A stretch of 39,684 nucleotides of DNA from a virus. Made by a program: the position numbers and the translations under genes. Of the stretch, positions 4,713-39,546 are shown in pieces; within the stretch, counting starts at the first letter, position 1, and the number at the start of each line of letters is the position of its first letter. The stretch spans positions 1 through 39,684 of the IMG/VR virus record IMGVR_UViG_3300035138_000061; one strand, given 5' to 3'. Under the pieces are notes generated by a model. It was not told the origin of the DNA. It ran no database searches and saw nothing but the letters and a program-made list of their open reading frames with translations.

Positions 4713-5855
4713 TTGTTACGTTTCGATATTGGTGAAATTACTAACTTGTACCCTACTAACGAAGGATTTTTACGGGGATACGCACGTGTCACTCGTACTG
4801 GTGTTTTTAATTACCGCAATCCTGATGGTACTTCCCGAAGAGAATTGCGACATCCTGATGATGTGTTCAATCTCGACAGCCTAAATACAATGAAAATGAT
4901 TCCGGTTACTAACGGTCATCCAGCGACTAAACTGGTGACAGCAGAAACTGCCAAATCATTATCTATTGGTTATACTGGAGAATCATTTAAACCTGATGGT
5001 AAATATGTAATCATGCCTATTGTTATTACGGATAAAGCTGGAGTAGAAGCTGTAAATAATGGCAAAGAGGAGTTATCATTGGGATATGAAGTTGAATTAG
5101 ATGATGAACCCGGTAGTTATGATGGTATGGAGTATGATTTTAGACAACGTAATATAAAGTATAATCATTTAGCAATAGTAGATCGGGGACGTGCCGGACC
5201 AGATGTGCGATTGAATACGGATGAAGCTGAAGAAATTCGAGAAAATAATCAACCAAATCAACCATCTCAACAGAGGAGTGAAAATATGGCAAAATTACGA
5301 TTGGATACTGGATGCGAGTATGAGGTACCACAGGAAGTAATTGCTGCTTTCGATACAGCAAAGAAAAACAGTGATACTCTTCAAACCAATTTAGATCAAG
5401 CCAACGCAGATGCTGAAAAACTTCGGGCTGATGCGGATACTGCTAAAGAATCAGCCAAGAAACTTCAGGAACGTATTGACGGATTATCCCAGGAAATTGC
5501 CACAGCTGTTGCTGCCCGTATTGAATTGGAGCGTACAGCTAATGATATCTTAAGTAAAGAAGTAAAAGTGGATGGAATGACTGATGATGAAATTCGTAAA
5601 GCAGTTATTCTGGACCAATTCCCTGATGCAAAATTAGATGAACAATCAGAAGCGTATATAGCAGCACGTTTTGACGCTGCTGTAGAATTGGCAAGAACCA
5701 CGGACAATTCAGAAAATGGCGCAGCTCATCAACGTAAAACTGTACACAGTGATGCAGCATCTTCCAGCGGATCGAATGAAGATAAAGTTGCGAAATCTCG
5801 AAAGGATATGATTTCACATCTGGAATGTGCATATAAAACGACAAAAGAGAAGTAA
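4713..5855 (+). CDS. DUF2213 prohead protease with C-terminal scaffold region
   Basis: 380 residues, started at TTG 4713 because GGAGG at 4702-4706 is six bases upstream; the longer open frame from 4629 runs through a terminator and is not coding. The N-terminal ~185 residues match DUF2213: RGYARVTRTGVF.Y, ELRHPDDVF, PVTNGHP, SLGYEVELD and YNHLAIVDRGRAG, a family that includes prohead proteases placed just upstream of capsid genes. Residues about 215-290 are a long Ala/Glu/Asp/Lys coiled coil typical of internal scaffolds, followed by a charged tail. So protease and scaffold are one polypeptide, as in lambda C. A nested start at 5286 would give the scaffold alone. Confidence 0.85.
   Translation: MLRFDIGEITNLYPTNEGFLRGYARVTRTGVFNYRNPDGTSRRELRHPDDVFNLDSLNTMKMIPVTNGHPATKLVTAETAKSLSIGYTGESFKPDGKYVIMPIVITDKAGVEAVNNGKEELSLGYEVELDDEPGSYDGMEYDFRQRNIKYNHLAIVDRGRAGPDVRLNTDEAEEIRENNQPNQPSQQRSENMAKLRLDTGCEYEVPQEVIAAFDTAKKNSDTLQTNLDQANADAEKLRADADTAKESAKKLQERIDGLSQEIATAVAARIELERTANDILSKEVKVDGMTDDEIRKAVILDQFPDAKLDEQSEAYIAARFDAAVELARTTDNSENGAAHQRKTVHSDAASSSGSNEDKVAKSRKDMISHLECAYKTTKEK
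5286..5855 (+). CDS. Nested in-frame scaffold protein (internal start)
   Basis: ATG 5286 is in frame with the DUF2213 gene and has GAGGAG at 5273-5278, seven bases upstream, a much better ribosome binding site than expected inside a gene. The product would be 189 residues: MAKLRLDTG..., a predicted coiled coil and a basic tail, with no protease domain. This is the same arrangement as lambda Nu3 within gene C. The start falls just after a low-complexity linker (NQPNQPSQQ), a natural domain boundary. Expression is inferred from sequence. Confidence 0.65.
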   Translation: MAKLRLDTGCEYEVPQEVIAAFDTAKKNSDTLQTNLDQANADAEKLRADADTAKESAKKLQERIDGLSQEIATAVAARIELERTANDILSKEVKVDGMTDDEIRKAVILDQFPDAKLDEQSEAYIAARFDAAVELARTTDNSENGAAHQRKTVHSDAASSSGSNEDKVAKSRKDMISHLECAYKTTKEK

Positions 5856-5902
5856 TTTACCGATAATAACTAAATTATTATACTATTTAAAAAGGAGACA
5901 AC

Positions 5903-6679
5903 ATGTCGCAAACTTCATATTCCTTGTATATGGGTAAAGGAGCACATGGTAGTAAGGCTGAGAGCAGATTTGATGCAGTTGCGTCATTAATTGCCATAGG
6001 GGATATCCCTATTGGACGTGCAATATTTCGAGCACCTGGTTTGGAACAATCGGGTAGACTTCCGATTAATGATCAAGTAGTGATACTCGATGATGCAGGT
6101 ACTTTTACCGCTGGAGATATTGTTACTACTGTTAATGGTACTGCCATTACAACCTCATTTACTACGGATAAAGATACCACCATGGCGGCACATGCTGCGG
6201 CAATTCTCGCAGGTATCACGGATGCTGCTGCTTGCGCATATTCAGCAGTAGCGCATACTATTACTCTAACAATGAATAATACAGCTATTGCTACCTGTGT
6301 TACCAGTGTGGCAGGTATAACGGGGACTATGACCATTACTTCTGAAACTATATCAACTAATGATTTAGCAGCGGATGTGATTGGTGCTTGTATTAATAAT
6401 GGTACATTACTTCAGGATGCTGATGGATTAGTTCAGTATGCAGAAGATGATGTGATGAGTGTAGTTACTGAAGGAGCACTATATCTGTATCCTGAAGAAA
6501 CGGTTACTTCAGATGATTCAGTATACGTACGAATCACGGCAGATGGAGCGAGTAAGCCGGTTGGTGGTTTTGGTAAATCAGCTGATAGTGGTAAATGTGT
6601 GGTACTTCCTGGAGCACGATGGGGTGAAGGTGGCACGACTACTGAAGTTGCTAAATTGATATTGAATCTACCCCAATAA
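5903..6679 (+). CDS. Capsid cement/decoration protein with an inserted domain
   Basis: A 258-residue protein from ATG 5903 (AAAAAGGAGA upstream), directly before the major capsid gene. The N-terminal (AVASLIAIGDIPIGRAIFRAPG) and C-terminal parts (DDVMSVVTEGALYLYPEETV.SDD.VYVRIT...GKC) resemble the structural cement proteins found between scaffold and capsid genes. Residues about 63-150 are an extra Thr/Ala-rich beta domain starting DDAGTFTAGDIVTTVNGT, nearly the same as an insertion in the tail sheath at 10506, also at DNA level. It probably binds the outer capsid surface. Confidence 0.75.
   Translation: MSQTSYSLYMGKGAHGSKAESRFDAVASLIAIGDIPIGRAIFRAPGLEQSGRLPINDQVVILDDAGTFTAGDIVTTVNGTAITTSFTTDKDTTMAAHAAAILAGITDAAACAYSAVAHTITLTMNNTAIATCVTSVAGITGTMTITSETISTNDLAADVIGACINNGTLLQDADGLVQYAEDDVMSVVTEGALYLYPEETVTSDDSVYVRITADGASKPVGGFGKSADSGKCVVLPGARWGEGGTTTEVAKLILNLPQ
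6147..6177 (+). repeat. 31-base direct repeat, copy 1 (inserted domain in cement gene)
   Basis: Bases 6147-6177 are identical to 10564-10594 in the tail sheath gene. Both code for TTSFTTDKDTT inside the shared inserted domain, and flanking DNA (for example around 6089 and 10506) is also closely alike. Confidence 0.9.
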
Positions 6680-7746: not shown

Positions 7747-8166
7747 GTGATTGTTAAGAATACTAAGACATTTGTTACTTATGCTGGTCCAATTTTCTTT
7801 TATCCCGGTATGAATGAATTCGATAATGAGAAATCAGAAACATTGATCGAAATGGATGTTTTTGAACAAATGGTTAATGATGGTACTCTTGTTATCATGG
7901 GCAGAAATGGGGATGAAGAGCAAATCCAAAATACATCTTCTGAAGTAGTAAGACAGGTAGCTAAAAAAGCAGAACGGATAGATATTAGTAAATTAAATGT
8001 TGAGAATGCTGCTAAAATTATCCGTGGCATGTATAATGTTGCTGAATTAAAAGAAATTCAGGAACGGGATATGCGTAAAGGAGTGCAGGAAGTGATAGCA
8101 ATTCAATTGCGAAGAATTGATGAAGCTGTCGTTAAGAAAAATGAAACTACTGAAGAAAGTGAGTAG
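7747..8166 (+). CDS. Hypothetical protein after the capsid gene
   Basis: A 139-residue protein starting at GTG 7747, five bases after GGAGG (7737-7741). The N-terminus is short and beta-rich (KTFVTYAGPIFFYPGMNEF); residues about 70-125 are helical and charged (AKKAERIDISKLNVENAAKIIRGMYN, then AELKEIQERD). Genes in this slot, between the capsid and DUF4054 connector genes, are usually minor structural or connector-associated proteins. The mid segment resembles short helical repeats that bind partners. Family not recognised. Confidence 0.6.
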   Translation: MIVKNTKTFVTYAGPIFFYPGMNEFDNEKSETLIEMDVFEQMVNDGTLVIMGRNGDEEQIQNTSSEVVRQVAKKAERIDISKLNVENAAKIIRGMYNVAELKEIQERDMRKGVQEVIAIQLRRIDEAVVKKNETTEESE

Positions 8167-8168
8167 CC

Positions 8169-8570
8169 ATGTCATTTTCAGCTTTACAAACTATCCAGTT
8201 ACGGGCGCCACAATGGTCAACTGATCCACGTTTAATCAGTTTGATTCCGTGGGCAAGTCAAGGATTGAGCGAAAATGTTTGTGGTAATCGATACGGTGAG
8301 GCTGTAGGTTTGAAGGTATTGCATATACTGGCGAAGGAAGCTGCTGCCGGGGGTGATCCAGGTTCTGGGTCATCTTCTGGTAGCGGTATAACTGGTACTT
8401 TAGTAGGCGAACGGGAAGGACAGTTATCTCGAACCTATGCCAAACCGTATAGTACATCAACCAGTTCGGTCAGCGCTGGAATGGAGGACTTTACTACAAC
8501 CTCTTTTGGGAGGGAATTGATTGCTTTACTTAAATCAGTAACATTTTCAGCACGGAATAGGTGTGTATAA
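8169..8570 (+). CDS. Head-tail connector protein (DUF4054)
   Basis: A 133-residue protein with the DUF4054 layout: FSALQTIQLRAPQWSTDPRLISLIPWAS near the start, a helix ending VLHILAKEAAAGG, a Gly/Ser-rich linker (GSGSSSGSG) and then LVGEREGQLSRTYAKP ... TSFGRELIALLKS. These proteins are gp6-like adaptors that dock on the portal and build the neck. The ribosome binding site is weak, so translation is probably coupled to the preceding gene, which ends two bases before. Confidence 0.78.
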   Translation: MSFSALQTIQLRAPQWSTDPRLISLIPWASQGLSENVCGNRYGEAVGLKVLHILAKEAAAGGDPGSGSSSGSGITGTLVGEREGQLSRTYAKPYSTSTSSVSAGMEDFTTTSFGRELIALLKSVTFSARNRCV

Positions 8571-9082
8571 TGGCCAAAGGTATCCGTGATGTGGATAAAG
8601 GGTGGAAAGACTTCCGTAAACGCATGGAAGGTGCCAAAGGTAAACACGTAACAAAGGTTGGGTTGCCATCCGGTAGCACTCCAGCGGTAGTTGGCAAGAA
8701 AGGTGGCAATAAACCTTTTCTGGATTTGGTTCAGATTGCAGCCGTGCATGAATTTGGCGCTCCAAATCGAAATATCCCGGAACGATCATTTATTCGATCT
8801 ACTACTGATGAAGAAAAAAAGAATTTAGCACATATTGCTAATTTGCAACATCAGAAGTTTATTGCTGGAAAAATAGATTTAAAAACAGCATTGGGAATTA
8901 TTGGAGAGTATCTTACCGGTAAAATGAAGAATAAAATCCGTCAACGGATACCTCCGCCTAACTCACCACAAACTATTAAACGTAAAACGGTACAGGGCAA
9001 AAAGGGAGATGTCCCATTAATTGATACTGGTCAATTAGTTCAATCGATTACTCACGTGGAACACATACAGGGGGCAAAGTAA
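8570..9082 (+). CDS. gpG-like virion morphogenesis / tail completion protein
   Basis: A 170-residue protein started at ATG 8570, which overlaps the previous stop by one base; the longer frame from 8561 lacks a ribosome binding site. Its core AAVHEFGAPNRNIPERSFIRST is a hallmark of the Mu gpG / HK97 gp10-like neck family, in which this loop contacts the connector. A lysine-rich N-terminus and the C-terminal PLIDTGQLVQSITH also fit. It likely helps join heads and tails. Confidence 0.75.
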   Translation: MAKGIRDVDKGWKDFRKRMEGAKGKHVTKVGLPSGSTPAVVGKKGGNKPFLDLVQIAAVHEFGAPNRNIPERSFIRSTTDEEKKNLAHIANLQHQKFIAGKIDLKTALGIIGEYLTGKMKNKIRQRIPPPNSPQTIKRKTVQGKKGDVPLIDTGQLVQSITHVEHIQGAK

Positions 9083-9432
9083 TGGCTGAAGGTTTACCAG
9101 GTCCATTTCGGCAGATAGTTACATGCTATCCGTATTTGTCCGGTAGTTATACGAAAGGTGAATGGTCTCAAGAAGTCGGCGTTTCCGTTGAAATATACGC
9201 TTCAATCCAACCTACTAATGAACGTGATTTAAAAACTTTACCGGAAGGAAGATATCAAAGTGATGCATATACACTTTTTACCACTTACGGGGAGTTAACC
9301 AGTTATTCAGTAGATCGGACTGGAGATAAAGTGATTTTATATGGTGAAGAATATGAAATTGCTTCAAAACGTCCATGGGGAAATAATATCATTAATCACT
9401 ATAAATATATTGCGGCAAAATTATGTCAATAA
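9082..9432 (+). CDS. Head closure / neck protein
   Basis: A 116-residue, beta-rich protein overlapping the previous stop by one base, with GGGGGC upstream. The pattern VEIYASIQPTNERDLKTLPEGRY.SDAYTLFT..ELTS ... DKVILYGEEYEIASKRPW is common to small phage neck proteins that form the head-closure or tail-joining ring. Gene order (connector, gpG-like, this, tail terminator, sheath) supports it. Confidence 0.65.
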   Translation: MAEGLPGPFRQIVTCYPYLSGSYTKGEWSQEVGVSVEIYASIQPTNERDLKTLPEGRYQSDAYTLFTTYGELTSYSVDRTGDKVILYGEEYEIASKRPWGNNIINHYKYIAAKLCQ

Positions 9433-25317: not shown

Positions 25318-25961
25318 GACTTCTTAATAATAATATGGCAAAAATACGTTCAAATAAAATTGTATTTAATGCCAAAAATCAAGTATTGAAGGAGAAAATT
25401 GACGATTTCTGTGATATGAAAGATACTGATTGTTTGATCACTGTTGATCCGGGGTATAATACTGCTTTAGCAGCATTCTATAGTAATGGTATCTATATTC
25501 AAAAATTTTCTATTCCAGATAAATTGGCTGAAATTGAAAAATTATATACAGCTCAATTGACTTTTGAAAAAGCATTAAATAATGTATCAGATTATGCCAT
25601 AGGCACTATTGATTATTCCGGTAGAATGGTGTTAATCGAGAATGTATCGGTTTGGGGCGAATCTGGTGCCAGTGGAAAAGCAAATGCTGGAAAAATATCA
25701 CAACAGTCAGAAGTATCTTCTGCACGCGGTGATTTACTTAAGTTAGCACGGTTAATCGGATTGTATTGCGGAGTGTGTTTTGATAATAATGATATTTGTA
25801 ATTTAATTACTGCTATAAATTGGAAAGGGCAATTGACTAAAAAAGCAACTAAAGAATGGGTTGAAATGGAATTGGGGTGTAGATTAGATATGACCGATCA
25901 TGAAATAGATGCTATCGGGATAGGATTAAGCGTACTTAATGAGTGGAAAGGATATAAATAA
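25314..25961 (+). CDS. RuvC-like Holliday junction resolvase
   Basis: A 215-residue protein in an ATGA overlap with the helicase gene (AAGGAG upstream). RNase H-fold motifs are visible: D45 in LITVDPGYNTALA, E109 in VLIENV, and D195/D199 in DHEIDAIGIG. These match the catalytic acidic residues of RuvC-like nucleases. It should cut branched DNA before packaging. The TTG-less alternative start at 25335 has no ribosome binding site. The stop overlaps the next ATG by one base. Confidence 0.8.
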   Translation: MRLLNNNMAKIRSNKIVFNAKNQVLKEKIDDFCDMKDTDCLITVDPGYNTALAAFYSNGIYIQKFSIPDKLAEIEKLYTAQLTFEKALNNVSDYAIGTIDYSGRMVLIENVSVWGESGASGKANAGKISQQSEVSSARGDLLKLARLIGLYCGVCFDNNDICNLITAINWKGQLTKKATKEWVEMELGCRLDMTDHEIDAIGIGLSVLNEWKGYK

Positions 25962-26536
25962 TGGCAGCAATAAAATTACCCAAACCGTTTAAATCAGTAA
26001 AATTTCTTAAAGATTTTAGAAATTGTACCGATTGTCAATTATGGAGTAGACAGTATAATTTACTTGTTGGAAGGGGTGTTCTACCCTGTGATTTACTTAT
26101 AATAAGTGATTTCCCTTCGCGAAATGATGAATTATCCGGTAAAGTTTTATCTGGTAATGAAGGGAGGTTATTTGATTATATGATAGAGAAATCTGGTATG
26201 AGTAAATTTACTTACTATATCACATACACTCTTCTTTGCTGTCCGATAGACAAGAAAAATGGAAGTATTCGAGAACCTACAATTTCAGAAATTGCTATGT
26301 GTCGAAAAAATATTTTCATGATTATAAAACAATCACAAGCTAAATTTTACTTACTTTTAGGAGATTTACCGAAGAGATATCTTGGAACTTCTTTACCGGG
26401 ATATTATAGTATACAACATCCTCTAAATATATCATTAACAGGAGCAACTAAAAGTCCATTATATCTGCAAAATTTACGGAAATTGGAGGAGATTTATGCC
26501 ACCATTGAAACTAATACAACCGATAAAAGTCAGTGA
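25961..26536 (+). CDS. Uracil-DNA glycosylase superfamily protein (family 4-like, Fe-S)
   Basis: A 191-residue protein. CTDC at 22-25, C93/C94 in YTLLCCP and C114 in EPTISEIAMC fit the four iron-sulfur ligands of family 4 glycosylases, and GKVLSGNEGRLFDYMIEKSG fits the loop after motif 1. The usual motif GEAPG is replaced by SDFPS (49-53), so the canonical water-activating residue is altered; the second catalytic motif HPS appears as IQHPL near the end. It may be a changed-specificity glycosylase or a non-catalytic binder. In a phage predicted to alter thymidine it could recognise modified bases. Fold likely; activity unknown. Confidence 0.72.
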   Translation: MAAIKLPKPFKSVKFLKDFRNCTDCQLWSRQYNLLVGRGVLPCDLLIISDFPSRNDELSGKVLSGNEGRLFDYMIEKSGMSKFTYYITYTLLCCPIDKKNGSIREPTISEIAMCRKNIFMIIKQSQAKFYLLLGDLPKRYLGTSLPGYYSIQHPLNISLTGATKSPLYLQNLRKLEEIYATIETNTTDKSQ

Positions 26537-28484: not shown

Positions 28485-28537
28485 ATTTACGCGCAATAAT
28501 GCGCAAACTATTAACAATTAATTAATTGGAGGTTTTT

Positions 28538-29536
28538 ATGGCGAAAGGCAATGTATTTAAAAATCGTTTAACTCAGATGCAAGCAGCAGCAAATGATGCT
28601 ATGACTGAGTACGTACCTGGTGGATTAAAGGTGCCAGATGATATTTACAATGCCAGAGTTCAAGCAGAACTCACTGAAAGTGCTGCAGGAAATTTAATGA
28701 TTACACGTACCTTTACGATTATGGAAGGGGATTATCAAGGATTAAAAATATGGGATCATATTGTATTAGAAAAATTGGATGATGACGGGGATCAACGCAT
28801 ACCATCATATATGGGAATTATCCAATCAAGACGGTGGTTGGAATCAATGGGGATAGAATTCCCGGAAGATGATTTAGGGCAATTGGATGAAATAATTACT
28901 CAAGTTTCTGATTGCGCACCTGCTTGTCGTATACGCTCCAAAACGTCACATTCGAAAAATACAGATGATGAGTATACCCATGTTACTGTATTAGAAGTGC
29001 TATATTGGGATGAAGAGGGTGAAGCAGCCTATAACGCTGGAGTAGAACAGCCAGCATCAGAAGGGGAGCAAGAAGGTGAACCGGAAGGTGAACAAGAAGG
29101 GACACAAGAAGGTGAACCGGAAGGTGAAATTACTTTTGAAAATTTGTTGACTTTCGCAGCAAGTCAAGGAATAGAAGAGCTGGATGATAGCATGGATGGA
29201 GAAACTATTATTGCCACTCTTTTAACTTATCAGTATAAAGCAAATGAAATTACTGATGAAGAAAGAGAAATGTTGCTTGCTATCGGTTTACCGGAAGAGC
29301 AGATTATAGAACCAGTACCTAAACAGGTAACAATACCGAAACCTGCTCCAAAGAAAGCATCAGCAAAATCTGCTCCAGCAAAATCTGCTCCAGCAAAACC
29401 GGCACTACCACCTAAACGTCCAGCGGTAACAACTCCAGCTAAAACTATATCGAAAAAACCTCCCGTTTCAACAGCTAAAAAATCAGCAACAGGGAAAGGG
29501 AAATTGTTACCACGTATAGGTATTTCGCGCAAGTAA
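28538..29536 (+). CDS. DUF669-like ssDNA-binding protein with long acidic and basic tails
   Basis: 332 residues from ATG 28538 (TTGGAGG upstream; the TTG at 28526 is part of that site). N-terminal ~150 residues form an OB-like domain: VPDDIYNARVQAELTES..GNLMITRTFTIMEGDYQGLKIWDHIVLEK..., as in DUF669 proteins linked to Sak4 recombinases. A 24-base tandem-like repeat then encodes an EGEPEGEQEG linker, next a helical VSR-like domain (FENLLTFAASQGIEELDDSMDGETIIATLLTYQ), and finally a Lys/Ala/Pro-rich tail (KSAPAKSAPAKPA). Acidic plus basic tails are common in ssDNA-binding proteins that recruit partners. Confidence 0.72.
   Translation: MAKGNVFKNRLTQMQAAANDAMTEYVPGGLKVPDDIYNARVQAELTESAAGNLMITRTFTIMEGDYQGLKIWDHIVLEKLDDDGDQRIPSYMGIIQSRRWLESMGIEFPEDDLGQLDEIITQVSDCAPACRIRSKTSHSKNTDDEYTHVTVLEVLYWDEEGEAAYNAGVEQPASEGEQEGEPEGEQEGTQEGEPEGEITFENLLTFAASQGIEELDDSMDGETIIATLLTYQYKANEITDEEREMLLAIGLPEEQIIEPVPKQVTIPKPAPKKASAKSAPAKSAPAKPALPPKRPAVTTPAKTISKKPPVSTAKKSATGKGKLLPRIGISRK
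29069..29128 (+). repeat. Internal repeat coding for the EGEPEGE linker
   Basis: A 24-base unit at 29069-29092 is repeated exactly at 29105-29128, with a 12-base variant between. It codes for repeated QEGEPEGE and likely varies in length by slippage. Confidence 0.85.
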
Positions 29537-31575: not shown

Positions 31576-33639
31576 ATGATTACTTTTAAAAGTTCAGTGA
31601 ATCCAATTATTAAACGTAAAAAGGTAAGAAAAAATATCTTTGAGCAATTTGGATTTATTGTGAAAGATGAGATAGGTGATCATGTTATAGGTGATTGTCC
31701 ATTTTGTAAGAAAAAAGATCACTTCTTTATAAATACGAAATCTCCCAACAAAACTTGGGACTGTAAAAAATGTTTACGTAAGGGAGGTTTTAAAGAATTC
31801 GTACAACAAATGTATCATTTTTGTAAAGAACAAACTAATGATAATATATTACAATTACTACAGAAGGATCGTGGGAATTCGATTAGTATAGAAACTTTAC
31901 GAAAAAGAGTAGTTTTTCATTCAGGTACTCAACAATATATAATTCACTATAAAAATAACAGAGGTGAAATAATTGGGTTAAAATTATATAATTTTAAGTC
32001 ATTAATATCTGCTGCTGGGTTTACTTTAGATTTATACGGATTATGGAATTTAGATGAAATAATAGCATCAGAACAAATATTTATCTGTGAGGGTGAATGG
32101 GACTATATGTATTGGTATGATTGTCTAACTTCCTTGGGAATTGACATTCCTATTGTAGCAGTTCCAGGAGCAGGATCATTACAAGAACACAATATGATTT
32201 TATTCCAGAATAAAATAGTTTATTTACTTTACGATAATGATGACGCTGGTCGAAAAGGAGTAGAACGGGCGACTAAAATGTTAGATGGAATTGCTACTGA
32301 TATTTTTAAAATAGATTGGCCTGATACTTTAGATAATGGTTTCGATATACGTGATTTAGCTATTCAGGGAGAAATGGAATATGATGAAGCGTACAATTAT
32401 ATTTATGATAAATTAATTGAGTCTAAAGTAAATCATAATGGTAAAGTTACTGCGGGAATGATTAATAGCAATCTCTGTCCATTAGAACCAGTCCCTCCTT
32501 TGGAAGTTTTCAACGAATACCAAAGACATTTACATATGCCAGATATTTCAATGTTATATATAATTTTTAGCACTGTTTTAGCCGGTAGATTAATTGATGA
32601 CCCATTATGGATGATTATAGTAGCACCTCCCGGCGCGACCAAAACGGAACCTATACTCTCTTTATCAAATACTTGGTGCGTTGAAACATTAAGCACCTTA
32701 ACACCTACCGCATTAATATCAGGTTCTACCCGACAAATCAATGGTGACCCTTCATTAATTCCTAAATTGAATGGTAGGGTATTAATAGTAAAGGATTTTA
32801 CAGCAATAATGTCATTGCCACAGACTGAGCGAGAAGAGATTATAGGGATACTACGGGATGCATATGATGGAGAATGTGGTAGATTTTTCGGGAATGGGAT
32901 CACCCGAAAGTATAACAGTAAATTTGGAATATTGGCAGCAGCTACTCCAGCGATAGAAGCATTTGTCGAGAATCATTCAGCAATGGGAGAAAGATTTTTA
33001 CGCTGGAGAAATTATCTGCCAACAAGTTTGTACAAACGTCAAGTCTATGTGCAGAAAGCTATTGATAATGTAGGGAAAGGCCCGATGATAAGAGAGGAGT
33101 TATCGCAAGCTGCTCAGTTGATCCTTCTTGCTGATTATAGTGGTTATACGCCAATTATTCCTACATTTATTAAAAAACATATTATTCAATTATCGTTACT
33201 GGTGGCACAATTGCGTGCGGTAGTGCCACGTGATCCGTATAGTAAAGAAGTAGTAGATTTAACAGAAGCAGAATTGGCTACACGTTTAAGTAAAGAATTT
33301 AGTCAATTAGTCATAGCTGCTGCTATGTTAGGAAGGAAATATGAGGTAGGTTTATTCGAATATAATTTAGCAATACAAGTTGCCCGAAGTAGTGCCCCAT
33401 ATAGGGTATTGGTTATTTTGCGGTTAGTTTATGAAGCAGGAGATAAAGGTATACGATCTACTGAAATAAATGAAAAGGTACGTTTGTCTTCGGCAACTAT
33501 TCAAATATTATTACAAAATTTAGTCATATTAAATTTCATAGAAAAGGAGCAAATTGTAGGAGAGAAGTTGAAAAAATATGTATACAAAATTACAGATGAA
33601 ATGCGATATTTTATCACTAACAGTAAATTATTTTCATGA
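31576..33639 (+). CDS. DNA primase with AAA-type ATPase domain
   Basis: A 687-residue protein. Zinc finger: C41, C44, C63, C66 (CPFC and CKKC). Toprim domain: E172 in FICEGEWDY and D220/D222 in YDNDDAG. Then an ATPase domain with Walker A-like PPGATKTE (K356) and Walker B VLIVKDF, and a C-terminal winged helix (RSTEINEKVRLSSATIQILLQNLV). This resembles primase-helicase proteins of phages and plasmids of the DUF3987 type. Joins primase and helicase activity for lagging-strand synthesis. Start AGAGG-preceded ATG. Confidence 0.83.
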   Translation: MITFKSSVNPIIKRKKVRKNIFEQFGFIVKDEIGDHVIGDCPFCKKKDHFFINTKSPNKTWDCKKCLRKGGFKEFVQQMYHFCKEQTNDNILQLLQKDRGNSISIETLRKRVVFHSGTQQYIIHYKNNRGEIIGLKLYNFKSLISAAGFTLDLYGLWNLDEIIASEQIFICEGEWDYMYWYDCLTSLGIDIPIVAVPGAGSLQEHNMILFQNKIVYLLYDNDDAGRKGVERATKMLDGIATDIFKIDWPDTLDNGFDIRDLAIQGEMEYDEAYNYIYDKLIESKVNHNGKVTAGMINSNLCPLEPVPPLEVFNEYQRHLHMPDISMLYIIFSTVLAGRLIDDPLWMIIVAPPGATKTEPILSLSNTWCVETLSTLTPTALISGSTRQINGDPSLIPKLNGRVLIVKDFTAIMSLPQTEREEIIGILRDAYDGECGRFFGNGITRKYNSKFGILAAATPAIEAFVENHSAMGERFLRWRNYLPTSLYKRQVYVQKAIDNVGKGPMIREELSQAAQLILLADYSGYTPIIPTFIKKHIIQLSLLVAQLRAVVPRDPYSKEVVDLTEAELATRLSKEFSQLVIAAAMLGRKYEVGLFEYNLAIQVARSSAPYRVLVILRLVYEAGDKGIRSTEINEKVRLSSATIQILLQNLVILNFIEKEQIVGEKLKKYVYKITDEMRYFITNSKLFS

Positions 33640-33649
33640 GAGGTTTAAG

Positions 33650-34270
33650 ATGTGCGCTGTTATCGGAAGTTTAGTGAAATATGCGGATACCCGATGTAAA
33701 TTTTTATTGACTAATTTATTCAAAGAGTCAGTAATCCGTGGTCAGGAAAGTTTTGGGTATTATGTAGTAACAAATCATGGAATATTATGGGATAATAATG
33801 CTCCAAGTATTCGAATCAGACAAATAATACAAGCATTGGAAGATAACACGGTAATATTGATTCATTGCCGTTATTCTACCAGTGGAAATACCGGACAACC
33901 CATAGTAATAGATAATAATGGATTAATTTTTAATGGTAATATTCATATGGGTACTAAAGAAGAAATTGAGCATGAATTTAAAATTAAAATGAAAACGGAT
34001 AACGATGGTGAAGTTTTTCTAACTTATTTAACTTCCCGGAAGCATATACAAATATTAAATGATCCCGATGTATCCTTCTTCGGGGCTTGGTATATTGGTG
34101 GGTGTTTATATGCAGCAAGGAATAAACGAAGACCGGGATACATCTATCGGGAACAAGGCAACACTTATTTAGTATCTACTAAAGATATCTTAAGTAAAGC
34201 TGGAGGAGATACACTCAAAGCAGTAGCTTTACCCAATGGGCATGAAATATTAGTGGGGCGAAGATGTTAA
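33650..34270 (+). CDS. Stand-alone class II glutamine amidotransferase
   Basis: 206 residues from ATG 33650 (GAGAGG upstream); the earlier frame from 33578 is in primase DNA. Class II (Ntn) signature: C2 nucleophile after Met removal, RGQESFG (30-36), HCRYST with R74, FNGN with N95-G96 and D119 in TDNDGE. These equal Arg73, Asn98/Gly99 and Asp123 of GlmS, so glutamine binding and ammonia release look intact. No synthetase domain is fused. It overlaps the DNA amino acid transferase gene by seven bases, so ammonia is probably used by the modification pathway. That role is inferred. Confidence 0.85.
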   Translation: MCAVIGSLVKYADTRCKFLLTNLFKESVIRGQESFGYYVVTNHGILWDNNAPSIRIRQIIQALEDNTVILIHCRYSTSGNTGQPIVIDNNGLIFNGNIHMGTKEEIEHEFKIKMKTDNDGEVFLTYLTSRKHIQILNDPDVSFFGAWYIGGCLYAARNKRRPGYIYREQGNTYLVSTKDILSKAGGDTLKAVALPNGHEILVGRRC

Positions 34271-35124
34271 CATATTATCAATACCATTTAAAAAGTTACG
34301 AATACGGAGATATTGATCCAGCGTATAATTTACTTAAGTATATTTGCGATAGATATGAACTGAATATTGAACAACGGTATTGGCTTGCTTTCCTTTACGG
34401 TTGCACTTATTGTGGCGCTACTGTATTTTACATATATAATGAATTCCCTGATTTTGAGAATGTGAATATACCACGATTGGAACGCTGGTGGAATGAACAT
34501 AAACATCGTTTACTATTTCAAACTGATCGTATGCGAATACGAAGTAATAATCAGTTTGTAGCAGCTTATCGATCGTACCAGGATCGGCTTGACGGCCGTC
34601 GGCAGCAAGATTTTATCGAAAACGATATTTGTACTTTCCCGGATGCAGGTCTGAATTATAATTATCTTTACCAACGATTATTAGAAGTAAAATATTTCGG
34701 TAGGTATAGTTTATTTCTCTGGCTGGAATGTATGCATGAATTGACTGGAGTAAATATCATGCCTACCCGTATAGATTGGCGGAATGCTAAAAATTGTTTT
34801 AATGGAGTAATGAATTGTTTTGGTTTACCTGAACGAGATATAGTTACTAAAGAAGAGAGTATGGTCGCGGATCAGTTATTTTTGGTAATTTTAAATCAAT
34901 TGCGTACTTATTATCCTCAGTTAAAAACGACTGTCTGGAATACGGAAACTACTTTATGCGCATATAAAAAATATTGTCATGATAAACGGTATGTAGGATA
35001 TTACTGGAAACGGATGTGTGCTGAAATAGAAAAAATGAAAAATAATACTCCAAGTAAAGTATGTTGGAATGCTTTACTTGATTATATTAACGATCCTAAA
35101 GAAAGGGAAAATTATGGCTATTAA
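34264..35124 (+). CDS. Amino acid:DNA transferase (aGPT-PPlase2-like)
   Basis: A 286-residue, almost all-helical protein. Key stretches: TYCGATVFYIYNEFPDFENV (48-67), LERWWNEHKHRLLFQTDRM (72-90), NNQFVAAYRSYQ and LGRYSLFLWLECMHELTG-like helix. These resemble the alpha-glutamyl/putrescinyl thymine pyrophosphorylase clade 2 family, which displaces pyrophosphate or phosphate from phosphorylated 5-hmdU in DNA with an amino acid. It overlaps the amidotransferase gene by seven bases and the ParB-like gene by eleven. Which amino acid is attached is not predictable. Assignment rests on family resemblance and on neighbours. Confidence 0.75.
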   Translation: MLTYYQYHLKSYEYGDIDPAYNLLKYICDRYELNIEQRYWLAFLYGCTYCGATVFYIYNEFPDFENVNIPRLERWWNEHKHRLLFQTDRMRIRSNNQFVAAYRSYQDRLDGRRQQDFIENDICTFPDAGLNYNYLYQRLLEVKYFGRYSLFLWLECMHELTGVNIMPTRIDWRNAKNCFNGVMNCFGLPERDIVTKEESMVADQLFLVILNQLRTYYPQLKTTVWNTETTLCAYKKYCHDKRYVGYYWKRMCAEIEKMKNNTPSKVCWNALLDYINDPKERENYGY

Positions 35125-35902
35125 ATTTATTTCTAAAAGTAAACAACCTAAACGAGTAGCACGCACAGAGCAGGAAGCACTACCAGCGGCGCCTACTACC
35201 AATCATCAGCTTAACATGCAATTAGTTCCGTTAGAGTCTGTTAAACTATGGTCTGAAAATCCATGGAATCATCAAAAAATAATTCCTCAATTGGCGAAAG
35301 CATTGGCTATTCACGGGCAAGTATCCGCTGTGATCGTTTGGCGCAAAAATAACACCATATACAAAGGAAACCATACCCACCGTGCAATTACTTATCTCCG
35401 GGACAATTTAGGCAAAATTGCGCAGGAATTGAGTATAACAATATCGGATATTATGGAAATAATTGATCCACGATATATTAAAGTGGAATATCGGGATTTC
35501 CCCAGCGAGAATGCTGCGACTGCTTATGGTTTATCAGATAATAATCTGGGGCAAGGAGGGAAATATGATGATAATTTACTTTTAAAAATTATGCAATCAG
35601 ATCAATCCTATTTCTCAGATACTAATCGCACTGGATTTACGGAGAAAGATTTAAAAGCATTTCAACTAAGCACTATGAGTGATATTAGTAAATTAGCCAA
35701 TACTGATGTTGCAGGAGATTCCCAACAAATGGGTGAATTTGCTATTATTCTATTCGATAGTGTATTCGAATTAACTGCTTTTAAACAAGCATTTGGTATG
35801 GCGGTTCATGAACGAAAAATAAATTTTTCAACTATTATGTCATCTATGACTGATGAATGGCGCCAATGGTTTATAGAACATATAGATGATTTACCTTTCT
35901 AA
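35114..35902 (+). CDS. ParB-like nuclease/CTPase-fold protein
   Basis: 262 residues started at ATG 35114 (GAAAGGGAA upstream); the longer frame lies in the previous gene. After a basic tail it has VPLESVKLWSENPWNHQKIIPQLAKALAIHGQVSAVIVWRKNNTIYKGNHTHRAITYL, the ParB-type domain; GNHTHRA is the counterpart of GERRYRA. SENAATAYGLSDNNLG follows. No typical HTH for centromere binding was seen. ParB-like proteins accompany thymidine hypermodification operons and are thought to bring enzymes to DNA or act in phosphate chemistry. It is unlikely to be a segregation protein because no ParA is present. Confidence 0.77.
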   Translation: MAIKFISKSKQPKRVARTEQEALPAAPTTNHQLNMQLVPLESVKLWSENPWNHQKIIPQLAKALAIHGQVSAVIVWRKNNTIYKGNHTHRAITYLRDNLGKIAQELSITISDIMEIIDPRYIKVEYRDFPSENAATAYGLSDNNLGQGGKYDDNLLLKIMQSDQSYFSDTNRTGFTEKDLKAFQLSTMSDISKLANTDVAGDSQQMGEFAIILFDSVFELTAFKQAFGMAVHERKINFSTIMSSMTDEWRQWFIEHIDDLPF

Positions 35903-35913
35903 AGGAGAACAAT

Positions 35914-36483
35914 ATGAAAATTGTAGGAATTTGCGGAGCACCAGCTACTGGAAAAACGACATTGGTACATGCTATAATTGATCATTATGGTATAGATACT
36001 AAGTGTATTTCGGATTTTCAATCATTGAAATATCTATATTCTAAAAGACATAAAATTATTATACTTGGAATATATGATAAAACTACCGCTTTTGGTGGTA
36101 CGGACAAATTAAGTATGTCTGTAATTAATGATGCTGAAGAATTCATTAGAGCTGGATTGGACTATTCTGATTTTGAAAAAGCTACTATCATTTACGAAGG
36201 GGATAGGTTGTGGTGTGCACGTTGGATTGAATTTATTATCAATTTAGATATTGAATATCTATTTCTTTATCTAAAATTAAATCATGATGAATTCGCACAT
36301 AGACATATTCTACGGATGCATGATAAAGTGGGGCAAGAGATTCAATTTATTAACTCTCGAATAACTAAATACGCAAATTTAATGAATACTTTCCCGGTAT
36401 TCCAAGTAGCAGATAATAGCACTTTAGTTAATCAAAAAGGTATCCTTCAAACTATCTATAATTTTATCGAAAAGAAAGATTAA
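35914..36483 (+). CDS. P-loop kinase, 5-hydroxymethyl-dU DNA kinase-like
   Basis: A 189-residue P-loop protein: Walker A GAPATGKTT (8-16), IIILGIYD (49-55), and FGGTDKLSM (60-68), a motif typical of 5-hmdU DNA kinases (HMUDK). The Asp in YDKTTAFGGTD fits the acidic residue that activates the hydroxyl. It would phosphorylate 5-hydroxymethyl-dU in DNA so that the transferase can substitute the phosphate. AAAGGAG lies seven bases before the start. Adjacent genes strongly favour this over a generic nucleotide kinase. Confidence 0.78.
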   Translation: MKIVGICGAPATGKTTLVHAIIDHYGIDTKCISDFQSLKYLYSKRHKIIILGIYDKTTAFGGTDKLSMSVINDAEEFIRAGLDYSDFEKATIIYEGDRLWCARWIEFIINLDIEYLFLYLKLNHDEFAHRHILRMHDKVGQEIQFINSRITKYANLMNTFPVFQVADNSTLVNQKGILQTIYNFIEKKD

Positions 36484-36485
36484 TT

Positions 36486-37838
36486 ATGGCAGCAATTAAA
36501 ATGAGTACAAATCCATGTATTCGAGATAAACTAAAAACAAATTACACCTCTCCCCGTTGGTCAGGGGAGGTACTGGATTGTAGTATGCCAATGACTTTCG
36601 ATCAATACTCAAGATGCTCATTCGATTGTTTGTATTGCTTCTCTTTTTTCCAGCGGTCTTTGAAAAAATATAATCCAATTACTGAAACATCTAAATTATA
36701 CACTGAGGAATTGCCTGCAACTATCAATAAAAAAATATTCTTGAATATGTTTACGGGTAATAGCACTGCTCAAAATTTTAAACAATTCAAAGGGTATATT
36801 CAGAATAGAATGGTAATGCAGTGGGGAGGGATGTCTGATCCATTTGATATTTTTGAAAAACGATATGGTGTTGGATTAGATATTCTAAATAATCTTTACG
36901 AAATAGAATATCCAATTTGTTTTAGCACTAAAGGTATTTGGTGGCTAGATGATGAACGATATGCTTGTTTATTTCGTGGGAATGATTTCTGGAATGTAAA
37001 AATAAGTATTATCAACTTGGATCCCGGTAGAGCATCTCAAATGGAGCGCGGAGTAAGCACTCCCATGGAAAGACTTGAAGCAATTAATCGTTTAGTTACC
37101 GGCCAGATCGGAAAGGGGGGCAAAGGTTTGAACGCTGGAGTAACTTTACGGTTACGTCCATTCATAATTGGATATTCTGATATAAATGATGAGTATCTTG
37201 ATTTAATTGAATTAGCGAGTAAAGCTGGCATTAATGCAGTAAGTACGGAATTTCTTTGTATTGAAGGAAGGACTACTTCGGAAAGTAAAGAACGATTTAA
37301 TGCTATGAGTGAGATTTGTAGTATCGATATAATTGATTTTTACCGAAGGAATTCACCGCATGCAGCGGGATATATGCGATTAAATTGGAAGATAAAAGAA
37401 CCGTATGTAGATAAGATGCAGTCTTTATGTGATAAATTAGGAGTACGTTTTTATGTTTCAGACGCACATCATAAAGATAGATGCAATAATGGATGTTGTT
37501 GCGGCCTACCTGAAAGCTGGAATTATTCGAGAGGACAATTTACTCATGCTTTAATGATAGCAAAAGAGTACGGGAAAGTACATTTTCAAGAAATAGAGAA
37601 AGGTATGCCAGATGAATGGAAAACGCAACCGATAGTGACCGCTTGCGGACTAAACGTGGCAAGGGGCAATCCAAGGGATCGAGCACGTTTCCGTACCTTC
37701 TCTATCCGGGACTATATCCGGTACATCTGGAATCATCCAAATCAACCACGATCTCCTTATAAATACTTTCATGGACTTCTTGTTGCTGATACGGTAGATT
37801 ATGAAGGTAATGTTGTGTATAGGTATAAACCTTATTAA
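36486..37838 (+). CDS. Radical SAM enzyme (SPL-like) for DNA base modification
   Basis: A 450-residue protein with the radical SAM motif C44xxxC48xxC51 in SRCSFDCLYCFSFFQ, placed after a short N-terminal part as in spore-photoproduct-lyase-like enzymes. GGMSDPFDIFEKRYG and LDILNNLYEIEYPICFSTKG fit the SAM-binding barrel. A second Cys group (C333, C337-C339, C387) could hold an auxiliary cluster or metal. In phage M6 a radical SAM isomerase rearranges an amino-acid-linked thymidine; this gene is likely to do the same or similar. Weak own ribosome binding site, so translation may be coupled to the kinase gene, two bases upstream. Confidence 0.8.
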   Translation: MAAIKMSTNPCIRDKLKTNYTSPRWSGEVLDCSMPMTFDQYSRCSFDCLYCFSFFQRSLKKYNPITETSKLYTEELPATINKKIFLNMFTGNSTAQNFKQFKGYIQNRMVMQWGGMSDPFDIFEKRYGVGLDILNNLYEIEYPICFSTKGIWWLDDERYACLFRGNDFWNVKISIINLDPGRASQMERGVSTPMERLEAINRLVTGQIGKGGKGLNAGVTLRLRPFIIGYSDINDEYLDLIELASKAGINAVSTEFLCIEGRTTSESKERFNAMSEICSIDIIDFYRRNSPHAAGYMRLNWKIKEPYVDKMQSLCDKLGVRFYVSDAHHKDRCNNGCCCGLPESWNYSRGQFTHALMIAKEYGKVHFQEIEKGMPDEWKTQPIVTACGLNVARGNPRDRARFRTFSIRDYIRYIWNHPNQPRSPYKYFHGLLVADTVDYEGNVVYRYKPY

Positions 37839-38301: not shown

Positions 38302-38691
38302 ATGGAAATACAATATTGTAGAAATTGTGGTGGTATACTTGTTGGAGATGGTAAAAAGATACCTTTACGTTGTTCTCGGTTTGCTTCAACCGATCTAAAC
38401 GATTACGAACATGTAGAAGAGGTGTATTATTGCCAGGAAATCTATTTACCGGGATGGATCGATGCTAAACTTAACCCCCCGATACCCTTTACTTATAGAG
38501 ATTCATTGCGAAATAAACCCAGATTATACGTATTACACATAGATAAAATACCTGATGATTCATTTTTAGGGTATTATAATATATTAGGAGAGTATCGACA
38601 CTGGACCATATTAGGATATCACGGAATAACTACAGTGCTTCATTATATGATGATACCTCCTTTCCCTGACATTGAGCCTATGATTTATTGA
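38302..38691 (+). CDS. Hypothetical zinc-ribbon-like protein
   Basis: A 129-residue protein from ATG 38302 with GGAGT upstream, two bases after the previous stop. The start is CRNCGGILV...LRC, a half zinc ribbon, with another Cys in YYCQEIYLPGW. The rest is aromatic and beta-rich (GYYNILGEYRHWTILGYHGITTVLHYMM). No family recognised. It is the last gene before a new promoter. Confidence 0.6.
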   Translation: MEIQYCRNCGGILVGDGKKIPLRCSRFASTDLNDYEHVEEVYYCQEIYLPGWIDAKLNPPIPFTYRDSLRNKPRLYVLHIDKIPDDSFLGYYNILGEYRHWTILGYHGITTVLHYMMIPPFPDIEPMIY

Positions 38692-38718
38692 AAATAGTTC
38701 TTGACTTTATGAGGATTT
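38691..38718 (+). repeat. 28-base promoter repeat, copy 1
   Basis: Bases 38691-38718 are identical to 39104-39131. The repeat includes the -35 box and half of the spacer, so it marks a conserved early promoter module. Confidence 0.9.
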
Positions 38719-38729
38719 TACAGTATAAT
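38701..38729 (+). promoter_or_regulatory. Sigma70-like promoter
   Basis: TTGACT (38701-38706), 17-base spacer, TATAAT (38724-38729). It is near-perfect and lies 42 bases before the start at 38772. Part of a repeat shared with the promoter at 39114. Confidence 0.9.
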
Positions 38730-38771
38730 TAAGTATAAGGTAATTAACACTCAAAATAAAGGATGTGCAAA

Positions 38772-39035
38772 ATGAAAAAGACTTTAAAAGTAAACGAAAG
38801 AGAAGCAAAAGTGATGGAGTGTATTTACAACCGTGATTTTCCAACACAAAAAGGTATTCAAGAAATGTTCGTTAAATTTTGTATTCAAACTATCAATATA
38901 GAGAATGATTTCGGCGCTTCTGTATCTTTAGAAATATCTAATTTAGTGACTAAAGGCTTAATTCAATTTGACGGCAATAATCAAGATTGGATTAACCTTA
39001 CTCAAGAAGGTAGACAATTATATTTTTCGAAATAA
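38772..39035 (+). CDS. Small winged-helix-like protein
   Basis: An 87-residue protein started at ATG 38772, eight bases after AAAGGA; ATG 38763 would leave no spacing. The layout is a helix (LKVNEREAKVMECIYN), a helix rich in charged residues and LEISNLVTKGLIQFDGNNQDWINLTQEGRQL, which is like the recognition helix and wing of small winged-helix proteins. It may regulate phage or host genes early in infection. Own promoter and terminator flank it. Confidence 0.6.
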   Translation: MKKTLKVNEREAKVMECIYNRDFPTQKGIQEMFVKFCIQTINIENDFGASVSLEISNLVTKGLIQFDGNNQDWINLTQEGRQLYFSK

Positions 39036-39060
39036 TTACTTTCGTAAAGTATTGATTTTA

Positions 39061-39094
39061 AAAGGTTCAGTTGTCCAGCGACTGAACTTTTTTT
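39061..39094 (+). terminator. Rho-independent terminator
   Basis: GTTCAGT (39065-39071) pairs with ACTGAAC (39081-39087), extended by G-T and A-T pairs, then seven T. It ends the single-gene unit 38772-39035. Confidence 0.85.
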
Positions 39095-39103
39095 ATTTTA
39101 TGT

Positions 39104-39131
39104 AAAATAGTTCTTGACTTTATGAGGATTT
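39104..39131 (+). repeat. 28-base promoter repeat, copy 2
   Basis: Identical to 38691-38718, covering the -35 box and the first part of the spacer of the promoter at 39114. Confidence 0.9.
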
Positions 39132-39142
39132 CATAATATAAT
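39114..39142 (+). promoter_or_regulatory. Sigma70-like promoter
   Basis: TTGACT (39114-39119), 17-base spacer, TATAAT (39137-39142), 33 bases before the ATG at 39176. Confidence 0.9.
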
Positions 39143-39175
39143 AAAGAGGTAAGGTAATTAACAAAGGAGAGAAAG

Positions 39176-39400
39176 ATGGACTCAAGTATCAAAAAAATTC
39201 AAGAAGCAATCGCAAGGAAAGTAAACACAGTAATCGAAATTAATGGACTTGAATATTTAATCCGCAGAGGTGCCCAATATCGTGGCGGTAAAATTGGTAT
39301 TGAGATTTATGCACATAATCATACCGCTAATCAATTTTTAAGTAGAGAAACGGACGTCGAATCAGCTGCGGATTTTATGGAAAATTATAAAGTTCAATAA
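39176..39400 (+). CDS. Small hypothetical early protein
   Basis: A 74-residue protein with AAAGGAGAG upstream. It begins with a helix (SSIKKIQEAIARKV), then beta strands (VIEINGLEYLIRRGAQYRGGKIGIEIYAH) and a helix (VESAADFMENYK): a small alpha-beta fold. No family recognised. Own promoter and terminator suggest a separately regulated early gene. Confidence 0.6.
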   Translation: MDSSIKKIQEAIARKVNTVIEINGLEYLIRRGAQYRGGKIGIEIYAHNHTANQFLSRETDVESAADFMENYKVQ

Positions 39401-39427
39401 TTAACGATCCATAGGAGATTTACAAAT

Positions 39428-39458
39428 AAAACCTACCTAATTTTGGGTAGGTTTTTTT
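39428..39458 (+). terminator. Rho-independent terminator
   Basis: ACCTACC (39431-39437) pairs with GGTAGGT (39446-39452), flanked by A-T pairs, and is followed by six T. It ends the unit of the gene at 39176. Confidence 0.85.
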
Positions 39459-39476
39459 ATTTATAAAGAATACTTC

Positions 39477-39505
39477 TTGATTTTTATATTACTTAATAGT
39501 ACAAT
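39477..39505 (+). promoter_or_regulatory. Sigma70-like promoter
   Basis: TTGATT (39477-39482), 17-base spacer, TACAAT (39500-39505), 41 bases before the ATG at 39547. Same architecture as the two upstream promoters but a different flank. Confidence 0.85.
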
Positions 39506-39546
39506 TATAGAGAAGATATTTTTACAATTTTCAAAGGCGGTAACAA

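Follow-up and report, generated by a model that had tools for sequence, protein, structure and literature searches.

The window, that is, the whole stretch of 39,684 nucleotides analysed here, is a 39.7-kb virus contig (IMG/VR record IMGVR_UViG_3300035138_000061) that carries phage head and tail genes, a DNA polymerase A, and a primase. It also holds the following features:

33650..34270, + strand: GAT, a stand-alone class II (Ntn) glutamine amidotransferase domain with predicted nucleophile Cys2; 206 aa, translation starting MCAVIG
34264..35124, + strand: ADDT, an amino acid:DNA transferase-fold enzyme of 286 aa (PF18724, E 4e-19) and the proposed user of ammonia
34264..34270, + strand: overlap of 7 bases between the GAT stop and the ADDT start, read from the sequence
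35114..35902, + strand: ParB-like domain protein (PHROG 498, PHROG 620), a frequent neighbour of the GAT-ADDT module
35914..36483, + strand: P-loop kinase (Ploopntkinase3, E 8.3e-6, just under the cut-off), the proposed 5-hydroxymethyl-dU (5-hmdU) DNA kinase making the leaving group
36486..37838, + strand: radical SAM-like protein, recognised by its CxxxCxxC motif (Pfam Radical_SAM weak, E 0.38)

The start of GAT is set at 33650 in preference to an in-frame ATG at 33578, inside the primase gene, because the homologues begin with Met-Cys, while its 3' end overlaps the transferase gene exactly as the initial annotation had read it. The ParB-like gene matches PHROG 498 (DNA methyltransferase, E 1.2e-14) and PHROG 620 (ParB-like, E 7.1e-14), with no match in Pfam.

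On its own, the window GAT matches Pfam GATase_6 weakly and below the cut-off (E 3.5e-4); as a single query, it finds no relative in viral_contigs and only chance-level matches among named phages (E 0.3-0.8) and in the PDB (phmmer). A relative in the viral locus L044 matches GATase_7 clearly (E 1.3e-9), and a PDB search with a profile of 25 GAT members returns PurF, GlmS, and asparagine synthetase (best E 9.6e-9). The AlphaFold2 model (pLDDT 91.7) is placed by VIA-align closest to E. coli PurF (Z 19.1, rmsd 3.1, 196 aligned), with GlmS (Z 18.1) and EgtC (Z 17.2) among the other matches, and Foldseek, which ranks by E-value, puts GlmS and EgtC above PurF, with EgtC third. Only residues 1-235 of PurF are covered by the alignment to the model, so the protein has no synthase domain; the GAT domain fills all 206 residues and is not fused to a QueC domain. 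The window protein has C2, R74, N95, G96, and D119, which, by PurF/GlmS, we take to be the catalytic, glutamine-binding, and oxyanion residues (Arg, Asn-Gly, Asp), and the same positions are conserved in the 110 distinct loci described below: C2 in 107 of the 108 readable members, R74 and N95 in 109 of 110 each, and G96 and D119 in all 110. Identity between the window GAT and the other sequences is low, at 26-37%, and its residue 33 is Glu, a position held by His in the other 68 that can be read. Both halves of the earlier claim, namely that the glutaminase residues of the GlmS/PurF type are kept and that a synthetase domain is lacking, are thus borne out, and the alignments and the model confirm 33650-34270 as a stand-alone class II glutaminase domain of predicted activity.

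The window ADDT scores 69.7 bits against PF18724 (curated cut-off 26.2). Its model (pLDDT 94.7) superimposes on PUGT 8z2m, which the PDB title names as the PaMx11 5-PmdU glycinyltransferase, with Z 19.5 and rmsd 3.3 over 253 aligned residues, and the next structural match, 8-oxoguanine glycosylase, lies far below (Z 9.2). Used alone as a query, the window ADDT finds no relative in viral_contigs and 348 records of named phages, the matches listed being of the Ackermannviridae type. The alignment of its clade finds 524 confirmed relatives in IMG/VR, of which the best 80 were fetched. In a tree of ADDTs, 23 GAT-linked representatives, which stand for the 110 loci, split from 13 others with 93% support; PhiW-14 gp109 is among these 13, the PhiW-14 record itself lying outside the GAT search. 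At ADDT position 247, all of these same 23 representatives have Tyr, the nine Ackermannviridae proteins (9/9) and that of contig L009 have Asp, and the PUGT alignment is ambiguous. The replacement of Asp by Tyr247 is only suggestive, hinting at a nucleophile other than an amino acid in the GAT-linked ADDTs.

The loci that carry both genes were reached through the window radical SAM gene, whose 27 viral relatives led to L023 and L029, with the order ParB-GAT-ADDT. Starting from ADDT, GAT lies upstream in 79 of 80 loci (the best 80 of 524), and in the 80th, L111, the contig ends at ADDT; starting from GAT, ADDT lies downstream in 77 of 80 (the best 80 of 181), and the three other contigs end 1-84 bases past GAT. 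Merging the two sets gives 110 distinct loci with the pair, counted after removal of L001 (the window itself), L035 (on the same contig as L023), and loci identical to another over the final 150 residues of their GAT frame. Between the two genes, 68 of the 110 loci have no other profiled family and 42 have only a GNAT, and GAT and ADDT overlap in 58 of the 66 measurable adjacent pairs of relatives, with ADDT starts set by script. A homing endonuclease-like gene, identified by eye, lies between GAT and ADDT in L123 (4591-5208).

Across 53 loci, the distance matrices of GAT and ADDT correlate at 0.91 over all pairs, compared with 0.84 for GAT and kinase, 0.78 for GAT and ParB, and 0.71 for GAT and TET; with distant pairs only, the values are 0.89 (partial 0.75) for GAT and ADDT and 0.57-0.65 for GAT with TET, kinase, or ParB. 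Some correlation is expected from a common history by itself, and the co-variation therefore supports, rather than proves, a physical partnership of GAT and ADDT. Moreover, in 48 of the 110 loci GAT is present with neither a GNAT nor an amidoligase detected in the span, which makes ADDT its constant partner. Conversely, in the whole records of 11 phages whose ADDT lies outside the clade (nine Ackermannviridae, PaMx11, and M6), the GAT profile matches nothing at E <= 1, nor at the same threshold in contig L009, whose ADDT is also outside the clade; as a positive control, the same profile finds the GAT of LUZ24 with E 1.2e-22. The coupling of GAT to a DNA transferase, put forward in the initial annotation, is therefore strongly supported by the reciprocal co-occurrence, the co-variation, and the GAT-less non-clade phage records, and by gene order it is confirmed as general in the loci examined.

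Counted as lower bounds, because only fetched spans were scored and many loci are contig fragments, at least 96 of the 110 pair loci have a TET/JBP gene, 90 a ParB profile match, 74 a kinase profile match, 57 a GNAT, and six an amidoligase-like gene. In the three loci that were read among those with no kinase profile match (L129, L131, and L189), divergent P-loop proteins are visible by eye, and in L156 (3211-4257) a low-molecular-weight phosphatase domain appears, again by eye, fused to the kinase. A radical SAM gene of the window type is found in five of the 110 loci; its carriers are the window (36486-37838), L023, L123, L155, and L188. TET is absent from all five, for which the check extended to whole records, and present in 96 of the 105 others (Fisher P 1.6e-5, for loci that are not independent and in some cases short). 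It is as if the window-type radical SAM enzyme took over or followed the methyl-functionalising step; in L015-L017, which have no GAT-ADDT pair, the enzyme and TET coexist. The relative in L023 matches Pfam Radical_SAM just under the cut-off (E 2.9e-6).

Contig L009, a natural comparison for the window, carries two radical SAM genes (4931-6268 and 7983-9269) that flank a kinase and an ADDT with no GAT; one is close to M6 gp53 (E 6.8e-98) and the other is of the window type, 55% identical to that of the window. An M6-like identity of the window enzyme was considered and set aside: its profile match to M6 gp53 is not evidence because the profile already included the M6-like L009 protein, and the window protein is not recovered by direct phmmer with M6 gp53.

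Regarding the base, the window record contains neither a TET/JBP gene nor a thymidylate synthase homologue, so that nothing in this record, which may be incomplete, shows where the hydroxymethyl group comes from; a thymidylate synthase homologue occurs in the records of L105 and L150, among 17 searched. A C5-cytosine methylase is found in only one of 20 records, the TET-less L023, whereas the 13 records that have TET show none, which makes thymine the likelier base and disfavours 5-hydroxymethyl-C as the substrate, host methylation being still possible.

In the model preferred here, GAT and ADDT would form a two-subunit, glutamine-dependent enzyme that aminates DNA bases. The P-loop kinase would initially phosphorylate a 5-hydroxymethylpyrimidine in DNA, most likely 5-hmdU by analogy with known pathways. 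Both a 5-hmdU DNA kinase step and an intermediate bearing pyrophosphate have been described for other phages (PMC6449724, PMC5977210). Cys2 of GAT, as its residues and computed fold suggest, would then attack glutamine and free ammonia, and the ammonia would reach the ADDT active site and displace the (pyro)phosphate to give 5-aminomethyl-dU, in the manner of PurF acting with PRPP. PurF exchanges pyrophosphate for ammonia, and it is both the top VIA-align match of GAT and the source of this proposed logic, but the acceptor proposed here is ADDT, a separate helical protein, and the substrate would be DNA. GNATs and amidoligases both act on amines, and their presence fits ammonia as the nucleophile because the proposed product has an amine: judging from the genes present in the relatives, this amine could be acylated by the GNAT or joined to a carboxylate by the amidoligase, while in the window the radical SAM-like protein would stand as the other enzyme instead. 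That GAT feeds ammonia to ADDT, and that ADDT uses it on phosphorylated 5-hydroxymethyl-dU to yield 5-aminomethyl-dU, is probable, though with a good deal of room for other readings; we infer it from gene content, and gene linkage does not name the substrate. Points against it are the six amidoligase-bearing loci, where amidation is possible, the catalytic residues lost from the L036 homologue, the lack of a TET/JBP gene and of a thymidylate synthase homologue in the window record, and the divergence of the window GAT from its relatives. The chances are about even for the wider proposal that GAT-ADDT is a PurF-like amidotransferase on duplex DNA, that a one-step glutamine route replaces glycine plus oxidase, and that the radical SAM-like enzyme of the window takes the place of TET/JBP, perhaps as the source of the modified methyl group or as an enzyme that reworks it.

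The closest comparison is with the glycine route. Wen et al. 2024 are said to have described glycine being added and then cut, leaving 5-aminomethyl-dU, a step for which the FAD enzyme of PaMx11 is presumably the lyase, and for M6, Lee et al. reportedly describe a radical SAM enzyme that acts once glycine has been added. The PaMx11 genes run from PUGT through the FAD oxidoreductase to the acetyltransferase (gp46-gp48), and then to a P-loop protein, an HMUDK_hel protein, and a thymidylate synthase homologue. PaMx11 resembles the GAT-linked loci in the family and fold of ADDT/PUGT, in a GNAT and a P-loop protein recognised by profiles built from those loci (the E-values obtained with profiles for PaMx11 and M6 proteins refer to sets of only eight proteins and overstate the matches), and in a likely common 5-aminomethyl-dU stage; in contrast, it installs glycine and has an FAD enzyme, and its record has no GAT match. 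The PaMx11 acetyltransferase used as a query finds the GNATs of GAT-linked loci (best E 1.3e-7), a relatedness that weighs little because GNATs are a large superfamily. The PaMx11 FAD enzyme (gp47) has no match at E <= 10 among 12,961 ORFs, which cover the window in full and, for its relatives, the spans fetched; in the same sequences at E <= 1, there is no match to the M6 PLP enzyme, and the M6 radical SAM enzyme finds only L009, which has no GAT. Since the GAT-linked spans lack these enzymes, GAT would occupy the place of those that convert the glycine adduct. The absence alone is no pointer to ammonia, because the ORF set includes four Ackermannviridae spans in which the FAD and M6 enzymes likewise have no match.

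Several alternatives have to be set against the release of ammonia for direct attack by ADDT. The initial annotation had offered two chemistries, of which ammonia as the direct nucleophile is favoured here; the other, in which GAT ammonia would serve an ATP-dependent ligase that amidates the carboxylate of an amino acid installed by ADDT, is unlikely. It draws on the Amidoligase_2-like genes near the pair, which follow ADDT in L023, L105, L117, L150, and L156 and precede GAT in L091, carry the motifs GxExE, GGExNTxPT, HxH, and EFR, and in L105 exceed the PF12224 cut-off (E 3.1e-7); GAT lies beside amidoligases in LUZ24 too. However, such a ligase is what amidation needs, and none is found in the window by PF12224 or by a custom A6 profile, the latter being the better test because PF12224 missed the known L023 copy. 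None is detected in 104 of the 110 loci either, and the search of 23 records (22 with GAT-ADDT, plus L009) with the A6 amidoligase profile matches only the L023 gene already known. Amidation would therefore fit a minority of loci at most, unless another ligase fold serves. In L117 (8473-9852), the amidoligase-like protein is fused to a low-molecular-weight phosphatase domain (PF01451). Improbable to a similar degree is that the Cys-bound gamma-glutamyl thioester of GAT acts as an acyl donor to a DNA amine, or that GAT carries out an EgtC-like Ntn hydrolysis of a base amide: its stand-alone domain and the high rank of EgtC among the structural matches agree with this, whereas the conserved glutaminase residues R74, N95, G96, and D119 do not, and a tailoring role alone would not account for the tie to one ADDT clade.

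Less likely again is a chiefly structural or regulatory role for GAT as a subunit of ADDT, with glutaminase activity secondary or lost. The homologue in L036 (7998-8720) would suit it, as it has Ser2, His74, and Asp95 and is still paired with ADDT and the kinase, in a record with no second GAT; its catalytic residues being lost, the ADDT there may act without glutaminase activity. Nevertheless, C2, R74, and N95 are intact in every other readable member of the 110. Lastly, GAT could act elsewhere, for example in host nucleotide metabolism or cell-wall modification, since phage GATases with an amidoligase are discussed as cell-wall modifiers (PMC10580990), and the LUZ24 cluster is of this kind; the reciprocal pairing of GAT with a DNA-modifying enzyme family makes this very improbable.

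The Gat-QueC protein of phage 9g, which makes dG+ in DNA, likewise employs a GAT domain in DNA base modification, but there GAT and QueC are one protein, whose substrate is a 7-deazapurine, and the passages on it in PMC6884629 name no ADDT. The GATase of LUZ24/PaP3-like phages matches the GAT profile and differs in its size (~510 aa), in its neighbours (COOH-NH2 ligase, amidoligase, RimK, and GGCT genes), and in having no ADDT annotated nearby. The Ackermannviridae (ViI-like) ADDTs are transferases of the same type, with a conserved core common to the window ADDT; they are, in contrast, longer (398-411 aa), and none of the nine records examined has a GAT match.

If one ADDT clade does work with its own glutaminase, phages would also be using nascent ammonia to aminate DNA, and amidotransferase channelling would extend to a DNA substrate. 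In the account attributed to Lee et al. 2022, phage thymidine hypermodifications reportedly start from free amino acids or amines placed on 5-hmdU and are then sculpted. The suggestion that the chemistry is undescribed holds only in part: the predicted product, 5-NmdU, is a known hypermodification, tied to N-alpha-GlyT in the titles of Wen et al. 2024 and of the PUGT structures, while the glutamine/ammonia route and the GAT-ADDT pairing appear new in the literature searched, with an earlier mention possible, in Iyer et al. 2013 above all. That literature yielded no measurement of the predicted base, which, given TET/JBP genes in most pair loci, may be widespread. As a two-protein system, GAT-ADDT could also serve as a biocatalyst for placing a reactive amine on DNA.

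Three further features of the window are recorded here. A protein of the Uracil-DNA glycosylase superfamily (25961-26536, E 1.6e-10) is encoded by this phage, which is predicted to modify thymine. A 12-base tandem repeat (29059-29128) lies within the ORF 28526-29536. Near the right end (38684-39509), a 50-nt repeat with a TTGACT...TATAAT-like pattern occurs three times, and its first two copies precede small ORFs or gaps.
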